From: an uncultured Planctomycetaceae bacterium
GTDB taxonomy: Bacteria; Planctomycetota; Planctomycetia; Pirellulales; Pirellulaceae
Assembly: GCA_903863885.1 (NCBI GenBank)
Contig: CAIPEB010000292.1
Coordinates: 1 to 64,000, forward strand
Reading direction: 5' to 3'
DNA: 64,000 nt
Positions within the stretch are counted from its first letter, which is position 1. Each line of letters opens with the position of its first letter. The position numbers and the translations under genes were made by a program. The notes below the pieces were generated by a model. That model was not told the origin of the DNA. It did not search any database and was given only the letters and a program-made list of their open reading frames with translations. Below, piece after piece: positions 1 to 28,653 of this stretch.

Positions 1-342
1 CGAGCCAGTCGCTTGCCTCCGCGATACCAGATATTCTCACCCAAACCGCCGCTTCGTCGCCTCCGAGGACCACAACCGCCCGCCCACTTGCCCCCCTCCG
101 GGCCACTACTGTCCGTCTACAACGCAATCGGCTCCCCTTCATTGCAACTCCGTCCAACGATTCCCTCCCGCCGCTCCCCTCTATCGAATGGACAGCCGGC
201 CGGCCCGCTGTTGCCCGGCAGATCGCCAATTTCCAGCCGAATCGCTCCGCCCGCTGAATGTCCCCTTTCGCCAAACTCGCTCGGCGACAACGATGTTCTA
301 CCGAACACGCTACCGCTCCCTGATTCAACCGGCAGTCCGGCA
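1..342. other. No gene recognised upstream of the first CDS
   Basis: The reading frame of the following hydrolase stays open back to position 13. The extra stretch is rich in Pro, Ser and Arg, has no domain-like pattern, and comes before the usual start of the metallo-beta-lactamase fold. I treat it as non-coding or as the tail of an unseen upstream gene. I see no RNA gene or clear promoter in it. Confidence 0.5.
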
Positions 343-1143
343 ATGACGCACTTCACCACCGACTTTCAAGGCCAGATGATCCTGCTCGGCACGGGCACTT
401 CCGTCGGCGTGCCGACCATCGGCTGCGGCTGTGCCGTATGCCGGGGCGGTCATCCGCGGAACCAGCGGACCCGCTGCTCGGCGATTCTCGGCCTCCCCGA
501 AGGCAACGCCCTGATCGACACACCGCCCGACCTGCGCACGCAACTGCTCCGAGAGGGCGTCGGCATCGTCCACGCCGTCGTCTACACGCACGAACACGCC
601 GACCACTTGTTCGGCCTGGACGACGTCCGCGTGCTGCAGTTCTATCTGGGGCGCCCCGTGCCGCTGTACTGCGAGGCCACGGTCGAACAGCGAATTCGCC
701 AGTCGTTCAACTATGCCTTCGTCGACCAGGAACCGACGCACGCGGGTGCAGTGCCGCAACTGGAATTTCACCGGATCCAGACCGAACCCTTCGGACTGCT
801 CGGCGTCCGATTCACACCGATCCGGCTGAAGCATGGTCCGCGGTTCGAGGTTCTCGGCTTCCGCGTCGGCAACATCGCCTATTGCACCGACACCAATGCC
901 ATCCCTCCGGAAAGCCTGCCGCTGCTCGCAGACCTCGACGTCCTCGTGCTCGACGCACTGCGAGATCGTCCGCACGCCACGCATTTCAGTCTGGAAGAGG
1001 CCGTCGCCGTCTCGCGGCAGCTCGCGCCGCGCCGGACCGTGCTGACTCACGTTTCGCATGAACTCGACTACGAGTTCACCAACGCACGGCTCCCCGCCGG
1101 AATCGAACTGGCCTACGACGGAATGCGGATCCCCCTTTCGTAA
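343..1143 (+). CDS. MBL-fold metallo-hydrolase, PhnP-like phosphodiesterase family
   Basis: This is a metallo-beta-lactamase fold hydrolase of about 266 residues, the usual size for PhnP-like cyclic phosphodiesterases. The N-terminus has the typical LLGTGTSVGVPTIGCGC pattern followed by a Cys-rich loop (CGCAVCRG), as in PhnP-type enzymes. The metal-binding HxHxDH motif is THEHADH near residues 82-88. Further ligands are expected at the late Asp (YCTDTN) and the C-terminal His (LTHVSHE). Two starts are possible: ATG 343 and ATG 376, which sits directly before the first beta strand. I chose 343, and the longer upstream extension is rejected. No C-P lyase (phn) genes lie nearby, so the substrate (cyclic ribose phosphate or another phosphodiester) is not known. 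It converges on prc across a hairpin at 1211-1236. Confidence 0.88.
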   Translation: MTHFTTDFQGQMILLGTGTSVGVPTIGCGCAVCRGGHPRNQRTRCSAILGLPEGNALIDTPPDLRTQLLREGVGIVHAVVYTHEHADHLFGLDDVRVLQFYLGRPVPLYCEATVEQRIRQSFNYAFVDQEPTHAGAVPQLEFHRIQTEPFGLLGVRFTPIRLKHGPRFEVLGFRVGNIAYCTDTNAIPPESLPLLADLDVLVLDALRDRPHATHFSLEEAVAVSRQLAPRRTVLTHVSHELDYEFTNARLPAGIELAYDGMRIPLS

Positions 1144-1210
1144 TTGCAGACCGAAAGCCGGCGCAAGCCCGCGGAATGAAAATCCGGAGCGGGGCACCTT
1201 CGTGAAACGG

Positions 1211-1236
1211 CACTGGCGGCCGTTTGGCCGCCAGTG
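1211..1236. terminator. Perfect 11-bp hairpin between convergent genes
   Basis: CACTGGCGGCC, loop GTTT, then GGCCGCCAGTG form a perfect inverted repeat. It lies 68 bases after the hydrolase stop and 58 bases before the prc stop. There is no T-tract on either side, so it may be a bidirectional structural terminator or mRNA 3'-end stabiliser rather than a classic intrinsic terminator. Confidence 0.6.
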
Positions 1237-1293
1237 CATTCAGAATCATCTAATGTCGATCGCTGCTTCTGCAGGAACGCTGCCGAACCGTGA

Positions 1294-3363
1294 TCAGTTC
1301 GCGCGAGCCAAGTTAAGCCGCGACAGTTCGGACAGGTAATCCAGCGCGATTTCGACGACTTCGCGATTGTAGAAGTCGTCCTTGTAGACCTCGTTCTTCT
1401 TGCCGTTCTGGGCGTCAACCTGCTTCTCTTCCTCTTTTTCCGCATCCTTCTCCGCAGCGCGCCGCGCCACGAATTTTTCCTCGTTCAGCGGAACCTTCTT
1501 TTCTTCCTTGTAGCGGTTGTAGCGCTCGATGTCTTTCTGCAGCTTGACAAAGTCCTGCGATGCCTGCACGCGTTCCTCGGAGCGGGCCTTCAGGCGGGCC
1601 AGAGCATCGTTCGGGATCATGTTGTTGGTGGCGAATCGGGCCGCACGCACGCGATCGAACTCCACGGCGTAGTCGAGATCCGCCTCGCCGGTTCCGATCA
1701 GGTTGGAGAGCGAGGGAAGCACGATATCCGGCACCACGCCGCGTTTCTGAGTGCTCTCTCCGCTGGGGCGATAGAACTGCTGAGTGGTCAACTTCAAGGC
1801 ACCCAGGTTCGGCGGGTTGGGAATGCGGAACATCCGCTCGCCCACGTTCAACATCTCCTGCACCGTGCCTTTTCCATGAGTCGCGGCATCGCCGATAATC
1901 AGACCGCGATGGTAGTCCTGGATTGCGCCGGCGAAGATCTCGCTCGCGCTGGCGCTGAACTTGCTCGTCAGCACAACGAGCGGCCCTTTCCAGATCATGC
2001 CGCTGTCTTCGTCGTCGAGCGACCGCACGCTGCCGTCAGCGTCCTTCACCTGGACGATCGAGCCGTGGTCGATGAACAGCCCCGTCAGGGCAATGGCCTC
2101 CGGCAGACTTCCGCCGCCGTTGAACCGCAAATCGAGCACGACTTCATCGATTCCCTTGGACTGCAGGTCGGTCAGAATGCGGCTCACATCCTGAGTCACA
2201 CTCCGTCCTCCCGATTCGTGATCCATGTCCGAGTAAAAGCTCGGCAGGTCGATCCAGCCGATCCGATACGGGGAACCATCCGGTTTCTTGCCCCGCTCGA
2301 GAATCACGCTGCGAGCCGCGCTGTCCTCCAACGCCACCTTCGCACGCGTAATGCTGACGAGCTTCGTTTCGAGCGAACCCTTCGATCGCACGCCCAGACG
2401 CACGATCGTGCCGGCCTTGCCGCGAATCAGCTTGACCACGTCGTTCAGCCGCATTTCCGTGACGTCTTCCATCTCGCCGTTTTCGCCCTGGCCGACGCTG
2501 ACGATCCGGTCATCCGGCTTCAACGTTCCCTGCTTGTCCGCCGCACCGCCCGGAATGATCTTCGAGATGATCGTGTAACCTTCGTCGTCCGGCTGCAGCG
2601 CAGCTCCGATCCCCTCGAGATTCAGGCCCATCAGGATGCGGAAGTTCTCCAGCGAAGCGGGCGACATGTACGTGCTGTGCGGATCAAAGCTCGTCGTAAT
2701 CGCCGTCAGAAACTGCTCCAGCAATTCGTCTCCGTTGGTCTGCTCCCAGATCCGGGCGTTCATGCGATAGCGGCGCAGAATCTTGGCGCGGGCCGCCTTG
2801 TCGTCCTCTTTGTCGGCCTTGGCAACCAACAGGTTGTACTTGATCATCTTGCGCCAGCGGTCGCGAGCCTCCGCTTCGTCACGCGGATACTGCAGCACGT
2901 CCGGATCGGTGATCAAGTCCTCGTCCGCCGTGAAATCGAAATCCTGCTTCAGCAGGTCCTCGACCAGCGCAACCCGCTCGTTCACCCGCTGCATGAACCG
3001 CTTGTAGACTTCGTAAGCGAAATCGACGCGCCCTTTCTTGACGTCGTCGTCGATCATCGTCTCCTTCTTGCGGAACTCGTCCACGTCCGACTGATAGAAG
3101 TAGAGCTTCCGCGGATCGAACGTGTTCAGAAAGGCCTTCAGCGCCCGCTTCGAGATTTCGTCGTCCAGCGGGCGGCGAGACAGATGGTTTGTTTCAGTCA
3201 GTCGCTCGACCGCTTTGGTCACGCCGTAGTCGCTGCGCTGCGGGCCTGTAACCACCGCTCCCGTCGGTCGACACCATACCGTCGCTGCGAGGCCAGTGGC
3301 TGCCAGTACCAACAGCCCGTGCATCCCGGGCAGCCGAAACGACGGTGAAAAATATCCGCGCAT
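1294..3363 (-). CDS. prc: Tail-specific carboxy-terminal processing protease Prc (S41 family)
   Basis: This is a periplasmic serine protease that trims or degrades proteins from non-polar C-termini. Its 689 residues closely match E. coli Prc (682). An N-terminal hydrophobic stretch (about residues 13-30) acts as a signal peptide or anchor. Next come the Prc N-terminal helical domain (FDPRKLYFYQSDVDEF), a PDZ domain (about 235-320, GIGAALQPDDEGY, IPGGAADK), and the S41 core with FSASASEIFAG (catalytic Ser about 470) and HGKGTVQ (catalytic Lys about 498). The C-terminal third is the highly charged Prc-specific region (EEEKQVDAQNGKK). ATG 3363 follows an AAGGGA ribosome-binding site. It is monocistronic and convergent with the hydrolase. 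The Ser/Lys dyad is intact, so it should be active. Confidence 0.95.
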   Translation of the reverse strand: MRGYFSPSFRLPGMHGLLVLAATGLAATVWCRPTGAVVTGPQRSDYGVTKAVERLTETNHLSRRPLDDEISKRALKAFLNTFDPRKLYFYQSDVDEFRKKETMIDDDVKKGRVDFAYEVYKRFMQRVNERVALVEDLLKQDFDFTADEDLITDPDVLQYPRDEAEARDRWRKMIKYNLLVAKADKEDDKAARAKILRRYRMNARIWEQTNGDELLEQFLTAITTSFDPHSTYMSPASLENFRILMGLNLEGIGAALQPDDEGYTIISKIIPGGAADKQGTLKPDDRIVSVGQGENGEMEDVTEMRLNDVVKLIRGKAGTIVRLGVRSKGSLETKLVSITRAKVALEDSAARSVILERGKKPDGSPYRIGWIDLPSFYSDMDHESGGRSVTQDVSRILTDLQSKGIDEVVLDLRFNGGGSLPEAIALTGLFIDHGSIVQVKDADGSVRSLDDEDSGMIWKGPLVVLTSKFSASASEIFAGAIQDYHRGLIIGDAATHGKGTVQEMLNVGERMFRIPNPPNLGALKLTTQQFYRPSGESTQKRGVVPDIVLPSLSNLIGTGEADLDYAVEFDRVRAARFATNNMIPNDALARLKARSEERVQASQDFVKLQKDIERYNRYKEEKKVPLNEEKFVARRAAEKDAEKEEEKQVDAQNGKKNEVYKDDFYNREVVEIALDYLSELSRLNLARAN

Positions 3364-22715: not shown

Positions 22716-23153
22716 ATGTGCGACGAGACCGTGGCCCAACTCCAGCCCGCAAACAGCCAGTCCGCTGCGTCCACCCGAATTCTCGCTGTCGACGACGACG
22801 AAAGCCAACTGGCCTTACTGGAGCACAGCCTGCGAAAACAGGGGTATTCCGTAACCACTGCCGGAACGGCGGCACAGGCCAGGATTGCCGCGATGCAGCA
22901 CAGGATCGACCTGATCCTGCTCGACCTGAAATTGCCCGACCAGGAGGGGTTTGGACTGTGCGCCGAACTGGCCGACCATCCGCAAACCTGCGGTGTGCCC
23001 ATCATCGTCATCAGCGGACTCGATGGGCCCGATATCGTCCGGCAAGCCAGGGCGGCCGGCGGATCTTTCTACCTGCGCAAACCTTACGATCCGAGCGTTG
23101 TGCTTGCGCTGATTGAACAGGCACTCCGCGAAGACACGCAGATCGATTGGTGA
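22716..23153 (+). CDS. Receiver-only response regulator
   Basis: This CheY-like protein has 145 residues and no output domain. It has the acidic pocket (ILAVDDDESQ, about 23-31), phospho-Asp in DLILLDLKLPDQEGFG (about 71), conserved Ser in PIIVISGLDG (about 101) and switch Lys in FYLRKPYDPS (about 123). All active-site residues are intact, unlike the pseudo-receiver on the kinase at 4.9 kb. ATG 22716 has AAGGA 9 bases upstream. There is no histidine kinase in the window, so the partner is unknown. Confidence 0.9.
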   Translation: MCDETVAQLQPANSQSAASTRILAVDDDESQLALLEHSLRKQGYSVTTAGTAAQARIAAMQHRIDLILLDLKLPDQEGFGLCAELADHPQTCGVPIIVISGLDGPDIVRQARAAGGSFYLRKPYDPSVVLALIEQALREDTQIDW

Positions 23154-23865: not shown

Positions 23866-24687
23866 TCAGAGGCTGTGCCGCGGGGGCAGCTGCAAAGCCG
23901 ACTCGCGATGGTCATTCGGATCCAGGAGCCGATCCAGAAGCGCTCCGGCTTCTTCGCTGGTGCGTTCCATCCGGATCAGCCACAGACTCTTCGGCAGCCC
24001 TGTCGAATCGAACGTATCGGAGGGGCATTCGGACAACACGGCACCGGCCACCTGCCGATTGAGGTCCGGGTTCGCCACAGCACTCGAAATGGCGGCGTGC
24101 AGCGAAAAACTCAAGGAAGCTCTCAACACGTCCCATCCTCTGTCTCGCCCGCGATTTTGGGCCATCTCGTCGGCAAACTGACGCACTCGGCGCGGACTGT
24201 GCGCAAACTTCCCCACGGGACACGTGGCAAACAAATGGCCCAGCAGCAGGTCGGTCCACCGCTCACAAAGTCGGCGAGTCCGGTTGACGGCAATTAATTG
24301 CTCGAGACTCAACCCGCCCCCCGTCACCATGCGGCCGAGCACTCGATGGCGAGCTTGCAGGTGGACATTCCAGATGTTGATCAGAATCGGCCCGGCCTCT
24401 TCAACGCCTGCCGCTTCGTCGCAGGCGCAGCCGATCGCGGTCCAGACCCGCGTCAACATTTCGCTCGACAGAACCTCTTCGATCACAGACTGCAATTTCT
24501 CGGATGCGGTCAGGTGGTCGGTGGTCTCGGGCGACTTCAGACACGCCAACCAGAGTTCGTACCGGCGTTTGCTCGCAGACCAGTACTCAACCAGCCCCCT
24601 GTCATTGAAACGCTTGCCCAAAGCAACGCGTGCCGGGCCACGGGATGCGGCAAACAACGCCATTTCTGCTAGATCGCGTGCGTGCAT
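23866..24687 (-). CDS. Hypothetical helical protein
   Basis: This 273-residue soluble protein is mainly helical, with segments such as ARDLAEMALFAASRG, KRRYELWLACLKSP, LIAVNRTRRLCERWTDLLLGH and LPKSLWLIRMERTSEEAGALL. Two Cys occur in AIGCACDEA. ATG 24687 was chosen for the AGGAAG site 8 bases upstream; TTG 24705 is in frame. I recognise no family. The composition and length argue for a real gene. The neighbours give no clue. Confidence 0.7.
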   Translation of the reverse strand: MHARDLAEMALFAASRGPARVALGKRFNDRGLVEYWSASKRRYELWLACLKSPETTDHLTASEKLQSVIEEVLSSEMLTRVWTAIGCACDEAAGVEEAGPILINIWNVHLQARHRVLGRMVTGGGLSLEQLIAVNRTRRLCERWTDLLLGHLFATCPVGKFAHSPRRVRQFADEMAQNRGRDRGWDVLRASLSFSLHAAISSAVANPDLNRQVAGAVLSECPSDTFDSTGLPKSLWLIRMERTSEEAGALLDRLLDPNDHRESALQLPPRHSL

Positions 24688-25074
24688 CGAACGGACTTCC
24701 TGCAATGCGATTTCAGCTGCGACCGATCAGCCCGACCGGCTACAGGCCCCGTCCCTTGCCCTCGATGGAGACATGAACGGGTAGTGTCTTCCGGCAGGAC
24801 TCTTCGCGAAAGCCCATCGATCAATGCATCGTTCCGGCCTTCGCTTGGAATCGTCTTTCGCTGCACACCTGAACGAGCAAACCCCGAACCAAGACGGACT
24901 ATCGGCACACGAAAATCCACAAGCAATTACAGGCAAAGGACTTGCGACACACGCCAAACCGCCGTTCGGTGATGCAAAAGAACGACCTGCGTTGCTAAAC
25001 GTCAACACAGGCCGCAGCAAAGGGCTTGCACTGGAACGGATCGACGCTGACTCGCGAGTTGACCTCGAGCGTCT
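24688..25074. other. Intergenic region, no gene recognised
   Basis: These 387 bases separate two minus-strand genes. Frames on both strands are Ser/Arg-rich shadows without ribosome-binding sites. There is no strong hairpin or repeat. Presumably they hold the promoter of the hypothetical gene and the 3' end of the anti-sigma operon. Confidence 0.45.
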
Positions 25075-26100
25075 TCAATCCTGCGCTGGCCGAATTCCCT
25101 GAGATATGAACCGGAAAGGCGACGCGACGCTTTGGCCGATCACGGCGTCGTTTTCATCAACTCCGGCCTCGACCAGGCCTCGGCGGTTGCGAAACGGGTC
25201 GTCCTGGTCGGCGTACTCCAACTGGGCTTCACCGAACGCCACATGGCCATCCTCGTAAAGCAGATTCAGACCGCGCCCCCAGTGCGGCGCGTTGACCACG
25301 GGCTCGCCGTACAGCAGCGGACGATCGGACATCAGCGCGAAGTAGTTGCGTCCCAGATTGCGGGGCGGCTCATAGCGGCCGTCAACGACGGCACCGAGAC
25401 TGTAACCGTACGTTCCGCCGGCTCGATCCTGCAGCGCCACGATCTGTGTTGAGGAAGCCAGATCGATCTCATCCAGGGTCGGAAGTCGGAATACGGCACG
25501 TCGCTGCAGCAAATGGGAAGAGGGGCAAATCACGACGCGGGGATCGGTCAGGTAGCCGCCCTCGACGAGAATCGGAGCATAGATTCCGGCAAAGGCCCGG
25601 TTGCCCCGACTCGATGCGCCCGGAAAAAAACCACCCCCGACCTTATCGCTGTAGTCTGCGACGGCGTACCCGATCTGACGCAGGTTGTTCTGGCAGGCGG
25701 TCACGTGCGCCGCGTATCGACTGTTCGAGATCACCGGAAAGAAGAGCAGAGCCGCAACGGCGCACACGCCAATGGCAACCACCATGTCGGCCATGGACCA
25801 CCGACCCGCTACCGGGGGCATTGGGCCACCGACGCCGGCGCGGGCCAACTGGGGTGCGGCGGCGGCAACGGCATCCGCGTGCTCGAAAACGAGGGCACTG
25901 GTCCGTTCGGCCAGATCGAACGGCGGATCACAGTCTTCGTCTCGCAGGGCTTCGAGCGGCTCCAGCGCCGCCTTCAAACACTTCAACTCGACGCGGCACT
26001 CCTCGTCTTCGACCAGACGCCGCTCGATCTCGCTCCGCTCATGTTCATCGAGAGCGTCGAGAAGGTAACCCAGTAATTGCTCACGGGTCGGACGATTCAC
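25075..26100 (-). CDS. Anti-sigma-like membrane protein with DUF1559-like C-terminal domain
   Basis: This 341-residue protein is coupled to an ECF sigma factor: its GTG start overlaps the sigma stop as GTGA. Residues 1-60 look like an anti-sigma N-terminal domain (REQLLGYLLDALDEHERSEIERRL, ECRVELKCLKAAL) without the HxxxCxxC zinc motif. A membrane helix lies at about 105-125 (VVAIGVCAVAALLFFPVI). The outer part starts with CQNNLRQIGYAVADYSD and ends with HWGRGLNLLYEDGHVAF. This is the same layout as the DUF1559 (pseudopilin-like) proteins abundant in planctomycetes. I infer a membrane-bound sigma regulator sensing an envelope signal. A start further upstream would overlap sigma and is less likely. 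Confidence 0.85.
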   Translation of the reverse strand: MNRPTREQLLGYLLDALDEHERSEIERRLVEDEECRVELKCLKAALEPLEALRDEDCDPPFDLAERTSALVFEHADAVAAAAPQLARAGVGGPMPPVAGRWSMADMVVAIGVCAVAALLFFPVISNSRYAAHVTACQNNLRQIGYAVADYSDKVGGGFFPGASSRGNRAFAGIYAPILVEGGYLTDPRVVICPSSHLLQRRAVFRLPTLDEIDLASSTQIVALQDRAGGTYGYSLGAVVDGRYEPPRNLGRNYFALMSDRPLLYGEPVVNAPHWGRGLNLLYEDGHVAFGEAQLEYADQDDPFRNRRGLVEAGVDENDAVIGQSVASPFRFISQGIRPAQD

Positions 26101-26759
26101 GTTGAACTTGTTCCTGAGTTCGGCCGGTTCCAGCACTCGTGCAACTTCTGAATCGCAGTATGCAGTCTGCTTTTCACGGTTCCCACAGGGACGTTCAGAA
26201 TATCCGCTGCTTCGCGATACTTGAGTCCCTGGTAGTAGACCAGATGCACGACCGTCCGCATTTGTTCGGTGAGGCTCTGCATCGCGGCCTGTACCAACGC
26301 CCGATTTTCCTTGCGGGTGACCATCGACGGCGGATCGAGGTCATCACTGACCAGCATCTCTGCCGGCCGAGACTTTTCGTGACTCGGCTTGCTTCCCATC
26401 CGATCCAGGCTGACAGCGCGATGCCGCCGATCACGGCGTTGGGCATCGATGGCCGCATTCGTCGCAACGGCATACAGCCAGGGGCGGAAGCGTCTTCCCT
26501 CCTCGAACTGCTGACACTTCAGGTGGATCAGGAGAAACGTCGCTTGAAAAACATCCTCTGCCGCCTGAGAGTCTCTCAGGTACCGTCTCAGGTAGTTGAA
26601 CAGTTCCCGCTCGTAGCGCTGAACCAGTTCGGAGAAACAACTGCGATCACCGCTCTGACGGTATTCCAGAAGCAGCTCTTCGTCCGTCAGCACGGCGACC
26701 TCCCGGTAGTCACCGGAAGGCTCGACGAGTTCCTTGACTGTTACTTTTTCTGTACGCAT
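26097..26759 (-). CDS. ECF-family RNA polymerase sigma factor
   Basis: This is a 220-residue group 4 sigma factor. Region 2 reads CFSELVQRYERELFNYLRRYL and AAEDVFQATFLLIH (about 58-90), with FRPWLYAVATNAAIDAQRR next. Region 4 is LTEQMRTVVHLVYYQGLKYREAADIL with the HTH VPVGTVKSRLHTAIQKL (about 190). Region 3 is absent, as expected. ATG 26759 gives the family length, and the longer frame has no homology-like content. It overlaps the downstream anti-sigma gene by 4 bases. It is probably autoregulated with its anti-sigma partner, as is usual for this family. Confidence 0.92.
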   Translation of the reverse strand: MRTEKVTVKELVEPSGDYREVAVLTDEELLLEYRQSGDRSCFSELVQRYERELFNYLRRYLRDSQAAEDVFQATFLLIHLKCQQFEEGRRFRPWLYAVATNAAIDAQRRDRRHRAVSLDRMGSKPSHEKSRPAEMLVSDDLDPPSMVTRKENRALVQAAMQSLTEQMRTVVHLVYYQGLKYREAADILNVPVGTVKSRLHTAIQKLHECWNRPNSGTSST

Positions 26760-27033
26760 GGACCCAAGAATAGTTCGAACCGTGAAATCGGAAAACCGGC
26801 CGTCAGTGGTCGGATGAACATCGATTGCCGAGGAAAAGGAATTCCTATGGTAACACGTGTGTGTCAGCTTGGCCAATGAAAGTGCGCCCTCCAAATCGCT
26901 CACCCCCCCCTTGCGGACGGGCCGGCAGACTCCTCCTGCGTCTCGCAGCCGCCGGCGAATTGACACACGTAGACGGCCTACCTAAACTCAGCGCCGCCTC
27001 GAACGTCCGCACGCCTACCGAACATCCGAGACC

Positions 27034-28653
27034 GTGGTGAACCGGCGAATTTCCTGGGCCTCGTTGGGGGACATCAATGCGTTTTTCGGGTTGATGCTCG
27101 ACAACGTCGCCAACCTGCTGCTGCTGGTTGGCCTGATGTCGCGCGTCTTCGAGTTCCCTGCGCGGTTCGCGTTGCGCTACATGATCCCAGGGACCGCCAT
27201 CGGCGTACTGGTCGGCGATCTTCTCTATTTCTGGATGGCGTTACGGCTGACGCGAAGAACCGGGAAGCCTGTAACGGCCATGCCGCTCGGACTGGACACG
27301 CCCAGCACGTTCGGAATGATCTTCTTCGTTCTCGGTCCCGCCTTCCTCGAAGCACGGCAGCACATGCCGGTCGATCAGGCGGCGGTACACACGTGGCACG
27401 TCGGCATGTGTTCGATCTTCCTCAGCGGCATTTTCAAATTCGCCTGCTCGCTGGGATCGAACTGGGTGCGAAGGGCCGTGCCGCGCGCGGGGTTGCTTGG
27501 TTCTCTGGCCGCGATCGCCCTGGTATTGATCAGCTTTCTGCCGCTGGTCGAGCTGTTGCGGTTTCCGGTTGTTGGCATGGTGTCGCTGGCCATCATACTC
27601 ACCACCCTGGTCGCCCGGATCGAAGCGCCGTTTCGCATACCCGGGGCGCTGGCAGCCCTGCTCGTCGGTTCCGTGATTTACTACGCGATGCAATTCACCG
27701 GGATGCTGACGCCCGAAGGCGCTCCGATCAATGCGAGTGAAGGATTGCTGCCCACCGAATGGATGTCGGCATGGCACTTCGGATGGATCGCCGCCATGCG
27801 TGACGCATTGCACTACCTGCCGCTCGTGATTCCTTTCGCACTGGCCACCGTCGTGGGCGGCATCGACTGCACGGAGAGCGCTGCGGCGGCGGGCGACGAA
27901 TACAACACGGGACGAGTCATTGCCGTCGAAGCGTTTTCGACATTGGTCGCCAGCGCCTGCGGTGGAGTGATTCAATCGACTCCGTACATCGGCCACCCGG
28001 CATACAAGGCGATGGGAGCCAGGGCCGCCTATACGCTCGCTACGGCGCTGTTCATCGGTTCGGCCGGAGTGCTCGGTTACTTCGGGTATCTGTACGTGAT
28101 CATTCCGAAGGTCACCGTCTTCCCGATCCTGGTGTTCGTGGGCCTGGAGATCACGGCCCAGAGTTTCCAGGCCACGCCGACTCGGCATTATCCGGCCGTC
28201 GCGCTCGCCTGCGTTCCCGCGCTTGCTTCGCTGGCCCTGATGTTTGTCGACAAGGTTCTCGGCGACGTCGCCGCGAAAGGAATCTCGCTCGAGCAGTTGA
28301 CCGGCGAGCTGCAGCTGCAGGTGTCGATCATTCGCGTCCTGGCCGGCGGGTTCGTGTTGACGAGCCTGATATGGGCTTCGGCGCTCGCCGCGATCATCGA
28401 CCGCAAACTGGCCGTGGCGGCAACCTGCTTCGCGATTGCCGCGGGATTCACGCTGTTCGGCGTGATCCATTCGCCGCTGCCCGGAAACGCCCTGTTCCTG
28501 CCGTGGCAGCTGAGTTCCACGATGTGGTCCACGCCGTTAAATTACGGGCTGGGATACTTGAGCATGATGACTGTGCTGCTGGCGTGGCACTTCACAAGTC
28601 GTCACGCAGATTCCGGCGAACCAGCCCACAGGAGCAACGAGAGTGGCAATTGA
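27034..28653 (+). CDS. NCS2/AzgA-like permease
   Basis: This inner-membrane protein of 539 residues has at least 12 hydrophobic helices. Its pattern fits the nucleobase-cation symporter-2 superfamily, closer to AzgA-type than UraA-type: SLGDINAFFGLMLDNVANLLLL at the start, the central GGIDCTESAAAAGDEY, and SACGGVIQSTPYIGHPAYKAMGARA in the conserved half-helix region. The substrate (purine, xanthine or other) is not decidable. GTG 27034 or 27037 is the start. It overlaps the downstream methyltransferase by 11 bases, so the two are translationally coupled. It is divergent from the sigma factor gene. Confidence 0.75.
   Translation: MVNRRISWASLGDINAFFGLMLDNVANLLLLVGLMSRVFEFPARFALRYMIPGTAIGVLVGDLLYFWMALRLTRRTGKPVTAMPLGLDTPSTFGMIFFVLGPAFLEARQHMPVDQAAVHTWHVGMCSIFLSGIFKFACSLGSNWVRRAVPRAGLLGSLAAIALVLISFLPLVELLRFPVVGMVSLAIILTTLVARIEAPFRIPGALAALLVGSVIYYAMQFTGMLTPEGAPINASEGLLPTEWMSAWHFGWIAAMRDALHYLPLVIPFALATVVGGIDCTESAAAAGDEYNTGRVIAVEAFSTLVASACGGVIQSTPYIGHPAYKAMGARAAYTLATALFIGSAGVLGYFGYLYVIIPKVTVFPILVFVGLEITAQSFQATPTRHYPAVALACVPALASLALMFVDKVLGDVAAKGISLEQLTGELQLQVSIIRVLAGGFVLTSLIWASALAAIIDRKLAVAATCFAIAAGFTLFGVIHSPLPGNALFLPWQLSSTMWSTPLNYGLGYLSMMTVLLAWHFTSRHADSGEPAHRSNESGN

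Follow-up and report, generated by a model that had tools for sequence, protein, structure and literature searches.

A planctomycete ECF sigma factor paired with a predicted anti-sigma factor that carries a pilin-like DUF1559-type domain

In this study, we analysed a stretch of 64,000 nucleotides, here called the window, from an uncultured Planctomycetaceae bacterium (GenBank assembly GCA_903863885.1, contig CAIPEB010000292.1, positions 1 to 64,000 of the forward strand). The locus of interest consists of an ECF sigma factor gene and, coupled to it, the gene of a predicted membrane anti-sigma factor, and its features are as follows.

26097..26693, minus strand: ECF sigma factor with Pfam regions 2 and 4; likely start GTG 26693, with GGGAGG upstream of the GTG
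26759, minus strand: ATG start of the longer sigma factor reading frame of the original prediction
25075..26100, minus strand: predicted anti-sigma factor with a pilin-like (DUF1559-type) outer domain, 341 residues, GTG start
25858..26100, minus strand: residues 1-81 of the anti-sigma factor, putative class I anti-sigma domain (AlphaFold2 helices 6-13, 19-31, 33-53 and 63-81; fold matches to RslA, RsiW and MucA; NCBIfam antisigma below cut-off)
25642..25800, minus strand: residues 101-153 of the anti-sigma factor, predicted membrane-spanning pilin-type helix (model helix 103-153; W101, D105 and P122 at pilin positions 1, 5 and 22)
25078..25641, minus strand: residues 154-341 of the anti-sigma factor, the remaining outer DUF1559/pilin-like domain, with C192 and H273-X10-DG
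26753..26777, minus strand: predicted autoregulatory ECF promoter CGAAC-N16-CGTA (-35 and -10 elements), exact site
23866..24705, minus strand: uncharacterised gene (279 aa), with relatives close to the pair in other loci
27034..28653, plus strand: divergent multi-spanning membrane protein, which we take to be permease-like, with relatives close to the pair in other loci

The sigma and anti-sigma genes overlap by GTGA at positions 26097-26100, where the sigma factor stop codon TGA (26099-26097) meets the anti-sigma GTG start codon (26100-26098), both on the minus strand; the original prediction was right about the strand and about this coupling. The sigma factor contains the sigma-70 regions that place it among the ECF factors, region 2 (Pfam, E 6.6e-16, 58.3 bits) and region 4 (r4_2, E 1.5e-14, 53.8 bits), both above their cut-offs, and it scores 114 bits against NCBIfam TIGR02937. 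The coordinates first given for its open reading frame hold, but the ATG at 26759 is probably not its start. Since this ATG (26759-26757) immediately precedes the -10 element of the predicted promoter (26756-26753), translation probably begins at GTG 26693 behind GGGAGG. In a scan of the neighbours in 56 loci, the window counted, relatives of the divergent membrane protein were found in 28 and relatives of the 279-aa gene in 16, in 13 of these downstream on the same strand. The 279-aa gene product matches nothing in Pfam or NCBIfam at E<=0.1, and the divergent membrane protein has a sub-threshold Pfam match only (E 0.045) and none in NCBIfam. Farther along the window, the translation of a small protein at 22716-23153 on the plus strand reads, by eye, like a response-regulator receiver domain.

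The N-terminal part of the second protein resembles the class I anti-sigma factors. The window protein scored below the cut-off with both Pfam RskA_N (E 0.0042) and NCBIfam 'antisigma' (E 2.3e-12, 47.4 bits against a 100-bit cut-off). The AlphaFold2 model, built from an alignment of 63 rows with a mean pLDDT of 89, has four helices up to residue 81, a single helix at 103-153 and then a small alpha/beta part. A Foldseek search with this model gave no PDB match at E<=0.001. The 13 entries listed by VIA-align were class I anti-sigma domains, matched within residues 1-77, and type IV pilins, matched within residues 98-318, with no other kind among them. The Z scores were 7.4 for RslA, 6.4 for RsiW, 6.2 and 5.9 for MucA, 5.1 for RskA and 4.7 for ChrR, and 5.8 for PilA4, 4.2, 3.5 and 3.4 for TcpA, 4.2 for CofA, 3.7 for Myxococcus PilA and 2.8 for FimA, all of which (2.8-7.4) fall in the range of possible chance matches, a Z below 8 being no proof by itself. 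The arrangement proposed from the sequence, an anti-sigma head followed by one membrane helix and an outer domain, agrees with the model and with the VIA-align matches. Like RskA, RslA, RsiW, MucA and ChrR, the protein has an N-terminal helical domain of the sigma-binding type, as judged by fold matches with both family scores below cut-off, and its gene adjoins that of its own ECF sigma factor (in 56/58 and 73/80 loci, see below). It differs from them in that a DUF1559 domain of pilin type forms its outer part and a pilin helix its span, and its head, inspected by eye, lacks HxxxCxxC, the zinc motif of class I anti-sigma factors. The head would lie in the cytoplasm and hold the sigma factor. 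A published account (PMC7406223) explains the binding of class I domains to ECF factors and the conservation, within groups, of the domains fused to them; a text search for 'DUF' in the main text of that article found no DUF domain mentioned.

The region behind the head matches the DUF1559 proteins, and through them the pilins. Taken alone, the window protein matches Pfam DUF1559 (PF07596) at residues 128-156 with E 0.0052 and 17.3 bits, below the gathering cut-off of 23.3 bits. In the orthologue alignment, 26/63 rows match DUF1559 at E<=0.01, the best at 1.9e-9, and in a comparison with ten DUF1559 prepilins from the window's genome hhalign aligned residues 101-161 with a probability of 98.2% and E 2.8e-14. 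The register of this alignment puts W101 on Phe1, D105 on Glu5 and P122 on Pro22, and it is free of gaps to residue 153. The C-terminal H..GG..DG motif aligns separately with DUF1559 (77.5%, pairwise E 1.9e-5), and in the profile comparison the stretch between the helix region and this motif gave no sequence alignment to the DUF1559 prepilins. Profile homology to DUF1559 is therefore found in the N-terminal region and in the C-terminal motif, with the gathering cut-off not reached by the window protein. The C-terminal DUF1559 domain proposed earlier is thus borne out by the profile check, though the Pfam score of the window protein itself is below the cut-off; the sequence motifs quoted for it also occur in the protein. 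A profile search of PDB sequences retrieved Geobacter pilin domains, PilE1 and GspG, weakly (E 0.0025, 0.0029, 0.017 and 0.036). In five of the seven pilin rows of VIA-align the offset to pilin numbering is 100, with 101 on 1 for FimA, 102 on 2 and 129/130 on 29/30 for TcpA, and 129 on 29 for CofA; the remaining two (PilA4 and Myxococcus PilA) put 98 on 1, ahead of the model helix. Helix and outer domain thus make up one protein of pilin type, and the span does not seem to be a generic anchor with a sensor attached; sequence and predicted fold together indicate that the membrane helix of the anti-sigma factor is the pilin helix itself, and that the anti-sigma domain takes the place of the prepilin leader. 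This identity of the helix and its conserved acidic residue 5, like the promoter and the candidate targets below, go beyond the original prediction.

Position 5 of this register is acidic in all 57 rows of one set (54 Asp, 3 Glu) and in 62 of the 63 rows of a second (61 Asp, 1 Glu, 1 Asn), the two sets both including the window and sharing 10 loci between their sources, and Asp105 is the third most conserved residue among positions 96-199. With respect to the features of type IV prepilins, the acidic residue 5 and a long alpha-1 helix (103-153) are present, and the Gly at -1 is not: the window has Arg there, and Gly occurs in 9/57 and 11/63 rows and Ala in 5/63. Prepilin peptidase needs Gly at -1. 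As this site is missing in most members, the anti-sigma factor should stay an uncleaved anchor in most of them, and in view of the 11 rows with Gly and the 5 with Ala some members may be cleaved. The likeness to type IV pilins and type II secretion pseudopilins (PilA4, TcpA, CofA and FimA, and GspG by sequence) thus comprises the long alpha-1 helix, the acidic residue 5, Pro22 and a similar fold, whereas the anti-sigma factor carries a signalling head and would not be expected to be cleaved or to polymerise.

With the planctomycete DUF1559/SBP_bac_10 (PF07596) prepilins the anti-sigma factor shares the helix, a Cys at pilin position 36, NNL plus QxG, and the C-terminal H..GG..DG. It departs from them in having a long anti-sigma domain for the short leader, usually without Gly at -1, in mostly having Trp1 and Asp5 where the prepilins have Phe1 and Glu5, and in one extra residue between H and DG. 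No variation at the two cysteines C136 and C192 is seen among 33 closer relatives; of the 63 rows, 48 retain the pair, 9 have neither residue and 6 lack only C136. At the position of C136 all ten DUF1559 prepilins also have a Cys, and their CP motif contains another, which can be equated with C192 by motif only. Most proteins of an expanded planctomycete family with a prepilin motif have been reported to contain an SBP_bac_10 domain (PMC8567305), an association that agrees with the pilin reading of DUF1559.

The pairing of the two genes is widespread. An anti-sigma match was obtained in all 60 genomes searched, that of the window included, and the best locus was examined in 58 of the 59 others, with G038 (best E 1e-6) left out. 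In 56 of these 58 loci the sigma orthologue is the next gene upstream on the same strand; in the other two it is about 5 kb away (L086) or absent within 13 kb (L076). The spacing between the genes is -109 to +341 bp in 55 loci with automatic start choice, L040 having been read separately. A search with the sigma profile gave 80 loci, nearly all with planctomycete titles and a few others (bacterium, Kuenenia, Peribacteraceae), of which 10 are common to the 58-locus set. An anti-sigma factor with the N-terminal domain lies downstream of sigma in 73 of the 80, some of them ending at a contig edge, and none was found downstream in the other 7 (L163, L173 and L175 among these). Where the pair seemed separated, in six genomes, five hold one anti-sigma factor with its N-terminal part and one clear sigma orthologue, and the sixth, a 1.3 Mb bin, holds the sigma factor only. 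In G060 the anti-sigma match comes as two stretches of one 482-residue frame.

The same association is seen across 297 genomes of the class, when two lists obtained with thresholds of E<=1e-25 for the anti-sigma factor (197 genomes) and E<=1e-50 for the sigma factor (207 genomes) were compared by eye: 197 genomes have both genes, 10 the sigma factor only (G038, G069, G071, G114, G119, G163, G169, G213, G221 and G275), none the anti-sigma factor only, and 90 neither. For these counts Fisher's test yields 2.6e-65, a value to be read with the fact that related genomes are not independent, and among the 20 sigma absences listed 19 fall in one family (f22). The anti-sigma factor is mostly single-copy per genome, and among the matches listed most begin within the first 15 profile positions and five at 38-55. 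Co-occurrence of the pair in other genomes, which the original prediction had named as a check, is therefore found at the level of both loci (56/58 and 73/80) and genomes (197/297).

The upstream regions of the sigma genes point to autoregulation. An anchor pattern gave 81 such regions, 73 of them distinct and of full length. Among the bipartite words in these regions, CGAAC and CGTA at a spacing of 16 or 17 were the most frequent. Exact CGAAC-N16/17-CGTA occurs in 48 of the 73, against a mean of 0.145 and a maximum of 2 in 200 block shuffles, and never on the opposite strand of these regions. Most of the 47 sites displayed have a start codon no more than about 12 bases behind CGTA, so that the mRNA would be nearly leaderless. 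We predict CGAAC-N16/17-CGTA to be the promoter of the sigma factor itself. The motif was chosen on the same sequences in which it was counted, some of them from close relatives, and an independent test on targets therefore matters. Within the window, sites with at most one mismatch exceed the shuffles (37 against 14.1 for N16, 24 against 14.0 for N17), and a second exact CGAAC-N16-CGTA, probably there by chance, lies at 25233-25257 on the plus strand, within the anti-sigma gene and opposite to it.

For targets, we searched for the pattern with a start codon close behind, which returned 92 rows in 10 genomes, the reversed pattern returning 54. In the 70 loci inspected (30 and 40), most matches lay inside other frames. 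One of these mostly chance matches led to a membrane gene that comes immediately behind a gene for a PilB/GspE-like ATPase. It has relatives in 28/30 genomes, and its DUF4190 match is weak and below cut-off in the two proteins tested. An exact N17 site lies within 260 bp upstream in 7 of 30 loci, that is, in the discovery locus and in 6 of the 29 others, the window's own genome included, where 0.06 exact sites would be expected in the 29 by base frequency; no exact N17 site was present farther upstream in the 30. This DUF4190-like membrane gene is thus the best-supported candidate target. It follows pilT/pilB-type genes in the window's genome and several others, and four such genes that were tested are Pfam T2SSE. 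In G006 (L293) it is not behind pilT/pilB-type genes and the N17 site is still present, and in G015 (L294) the site falls within the last part of the PilB-like frame. As the PilT/PilB genes precede the target promoter, they are neighbours and not shown targets. In the loci L291-L310, which surround the DUF4190-like gene, HisF-like and PilT-like genes occur together, by motif, in 9 of 20, including that of the window's genome.

Whole-genome counts of CGAAC-N17-CGTA, the only spacing listed genome-wide, were 30 against 39 for the reversed control in G030, 60 against 70 in G000, the window's genome, and 62 against 96 in G015. Since these counts do not exceed the controls, the regulon is probably small. 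We inspected all 30 sites in G030, all 60 in G000, and 30 of the 62 in G015 together with three more (C177, C254 and C327). Five of the 30 sites in G030 lie outside long frames with a gene behind them, namely two His/Cys-rich proteins of 140-146 residues with C..C and an RGPP tail, one transporter, one ABC ATPase and one DUF4190-like gene. The transporter is NicO/RcnA-like (DsbD_2 and NicO in Pfam; nickel/cobalt efflux in NCBIfam, below cut-off), and a Flp/Tad-like pilus cluster (class III signal peptide, RcpC/CpaB, AAA_31 and T2SSE) comes after one of the His/Cys-rich genes. A third His/Cys-rich protein, in the window's genome, also has a site ahead of it, and the next gene is a DUF1559 prepilin. 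A motif search of all loci examined found only four His/Cys-rich proteins of the RGPP type, the fourth of which (L169) has no site. In L169 this gene (282-740, plus strand) is likewise followed by a DUF1559 prepilin (811-1590, plus strand), the two sharing a contig with the sigma/anti-sigma pair and lying 2-4 kb upstream of it. With less certainty, these candidate targets point to metal binding or to pilins. A DsbD-like gene was rejected as a conserved target, the exact site being found close upstream in 2 of 27 loci, one of them the discovery site, against 2 exact sites farther upstream. The remaining genes behind single sites are not claimed as targets; they are the ABC ATPase in G030 (L327, by Pfam), L342, L343, L354, L359 (MurQ-like), L367, L404, L414, L424 and an ABC ATPase (L428) in G000, and a short-chain dehydrogenase (L387), L393 and a NuoA-like gene (L396) in G015, the labels in the latter two genomes having been assigned by eye.

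Taken together, we consider it likely that this ECF sigma factor is controlled by a membrane anti-sigma factor composed of a class I head and a pilin-type DUF1559 part, the head holding the sigma factor until its release allows expression of its own operon and of a small set of envelope genes. The anti-sigma factor would be anchored by its pilin helix, for which we infer, from the orientation of pilins, an N-in/C-out topology, and the cytoplasmic class I head would keep the sigma factor bound. The trigger might be that the outer domain changes, or that the helix alters its contacts with other pilin-type proteins through Asp5; proteolysis would probably come next and free the sigma factor, which would then transcribe its own operon from CGAAC-N16/17-CGTA and also the small envelope gene set, the DUF4190-like gene being the best supported. 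The DUF1559 domain would act as the sensor, and the likeliest candidate for its signal would be the state, at the inner membrane, of DUF1559 proteins or others of pilin type. A more specific and rather tentative form of this idea is that the uncleaved, pilin-shaped anti-sigma factor docks in the inner membrane, by way of Asp5, onto processed subunits of DUF1559 or other pilin type, whose pool or assembly state would then set the expression of a small envelope and pilus-linked regulon. In Pseudomonas, the PilS-PilA system has a histidine kinase that reads pilins in the inner membrane; the idea of a regulator reading inner-membrane pilins is common to both, whereas here the regulator would be an ECF sigma factor with a pilin-shaped anti-sigma factor.

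It may also be that the outer domain of DUF1559 type senses a small ligand, a metal or redox state on its own, the pilin helix and Asp5 being mere ancestry. We regard this as a possibility of about equal standing with pilin sensing, itself short of an even chance. The sites found in G030 ahead of a NicO/RcnA-like transporter and of two His/Cys-rich proteins, and in the window's genome ahead of one such protein, speak for it, as does the invariance of C136 and C192 in the 33 closer relatives; these metal-linked targets come, however, from two genomes only. Moreover, the conservation rank of Asp105 is hardly expected of a relic, and the cysteine pair is lost in part of the 63 rows while position 5 stays acidic in all but one, so that thiol sensing is not general; as a general mechanism it is weakened by these losses (both in 9 rows, C136 alone in 6).

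A plainer role for Asp105, as a helix-capping or membrane-edge residue on an ordinary anchor, with a protease alone reading the signal, seems to us somewhat unlikely. At position 102, 29 of the 63 rows have Ser and 3 have Thr, as in a capping box, and the model helix begins at 103. The acid is nevertheless kept in all 30 rows whose residue 102 is none of Ser, Thr, Asp and Asn, and capping alone is therefore no explanation; the gap-free pilin register over 101-153 also argues against it. That the DUF1559 protein has nothing to do with sigma control and adjoins the sigma gene by accident is very improbable: the spacing varies (-109 to +341 bp with automatic starts) and the genes lie apart in some genomes, but they are adjacent in nearly all of the 58 loci, both are present in five of the six genomes in which they are apart, and the N-terminal fold is that of a class I anti-sigma domain.

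The DUF1559 family is large in planctomycetes, with 74 genes reported in Rhodopirellula baltica (PMC2754498) and 68 paralogues of unknown function, two of them essential, in Planctopirus limnophila (PMC10632474). The literature searched, a scope outside which the key ECF surveys lie, held no paper on a DUF1559 anti-sigma factor. An anti-sigma factor apparently built on DUF1559 in 197 of 297 genomes of the class, with a predicted promoter and candidate targets, would give this family a testable signalling role and open it to genetics, and if the pilin reading is true, whole pilins would join the known sensor domains of anti-sigma factors. The genome of the window itself has 56 DUF1559 matches, some of which are pieces of one gene. 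Three of its loci (L101, L103 and L104) encode long proteins that have the DUF1559 core without the FTLVE start of the pilin helix. In a fourth (L105, contig G000:C555, 389-2785, plus strand), a 799-residue protein with a Ser/Thr kinase domain at residues 110-360 matches DUF1559 in its C-terminal part (best stretch 600-682, E 9.1e-34), which places DUF1559 on another signalling protein.
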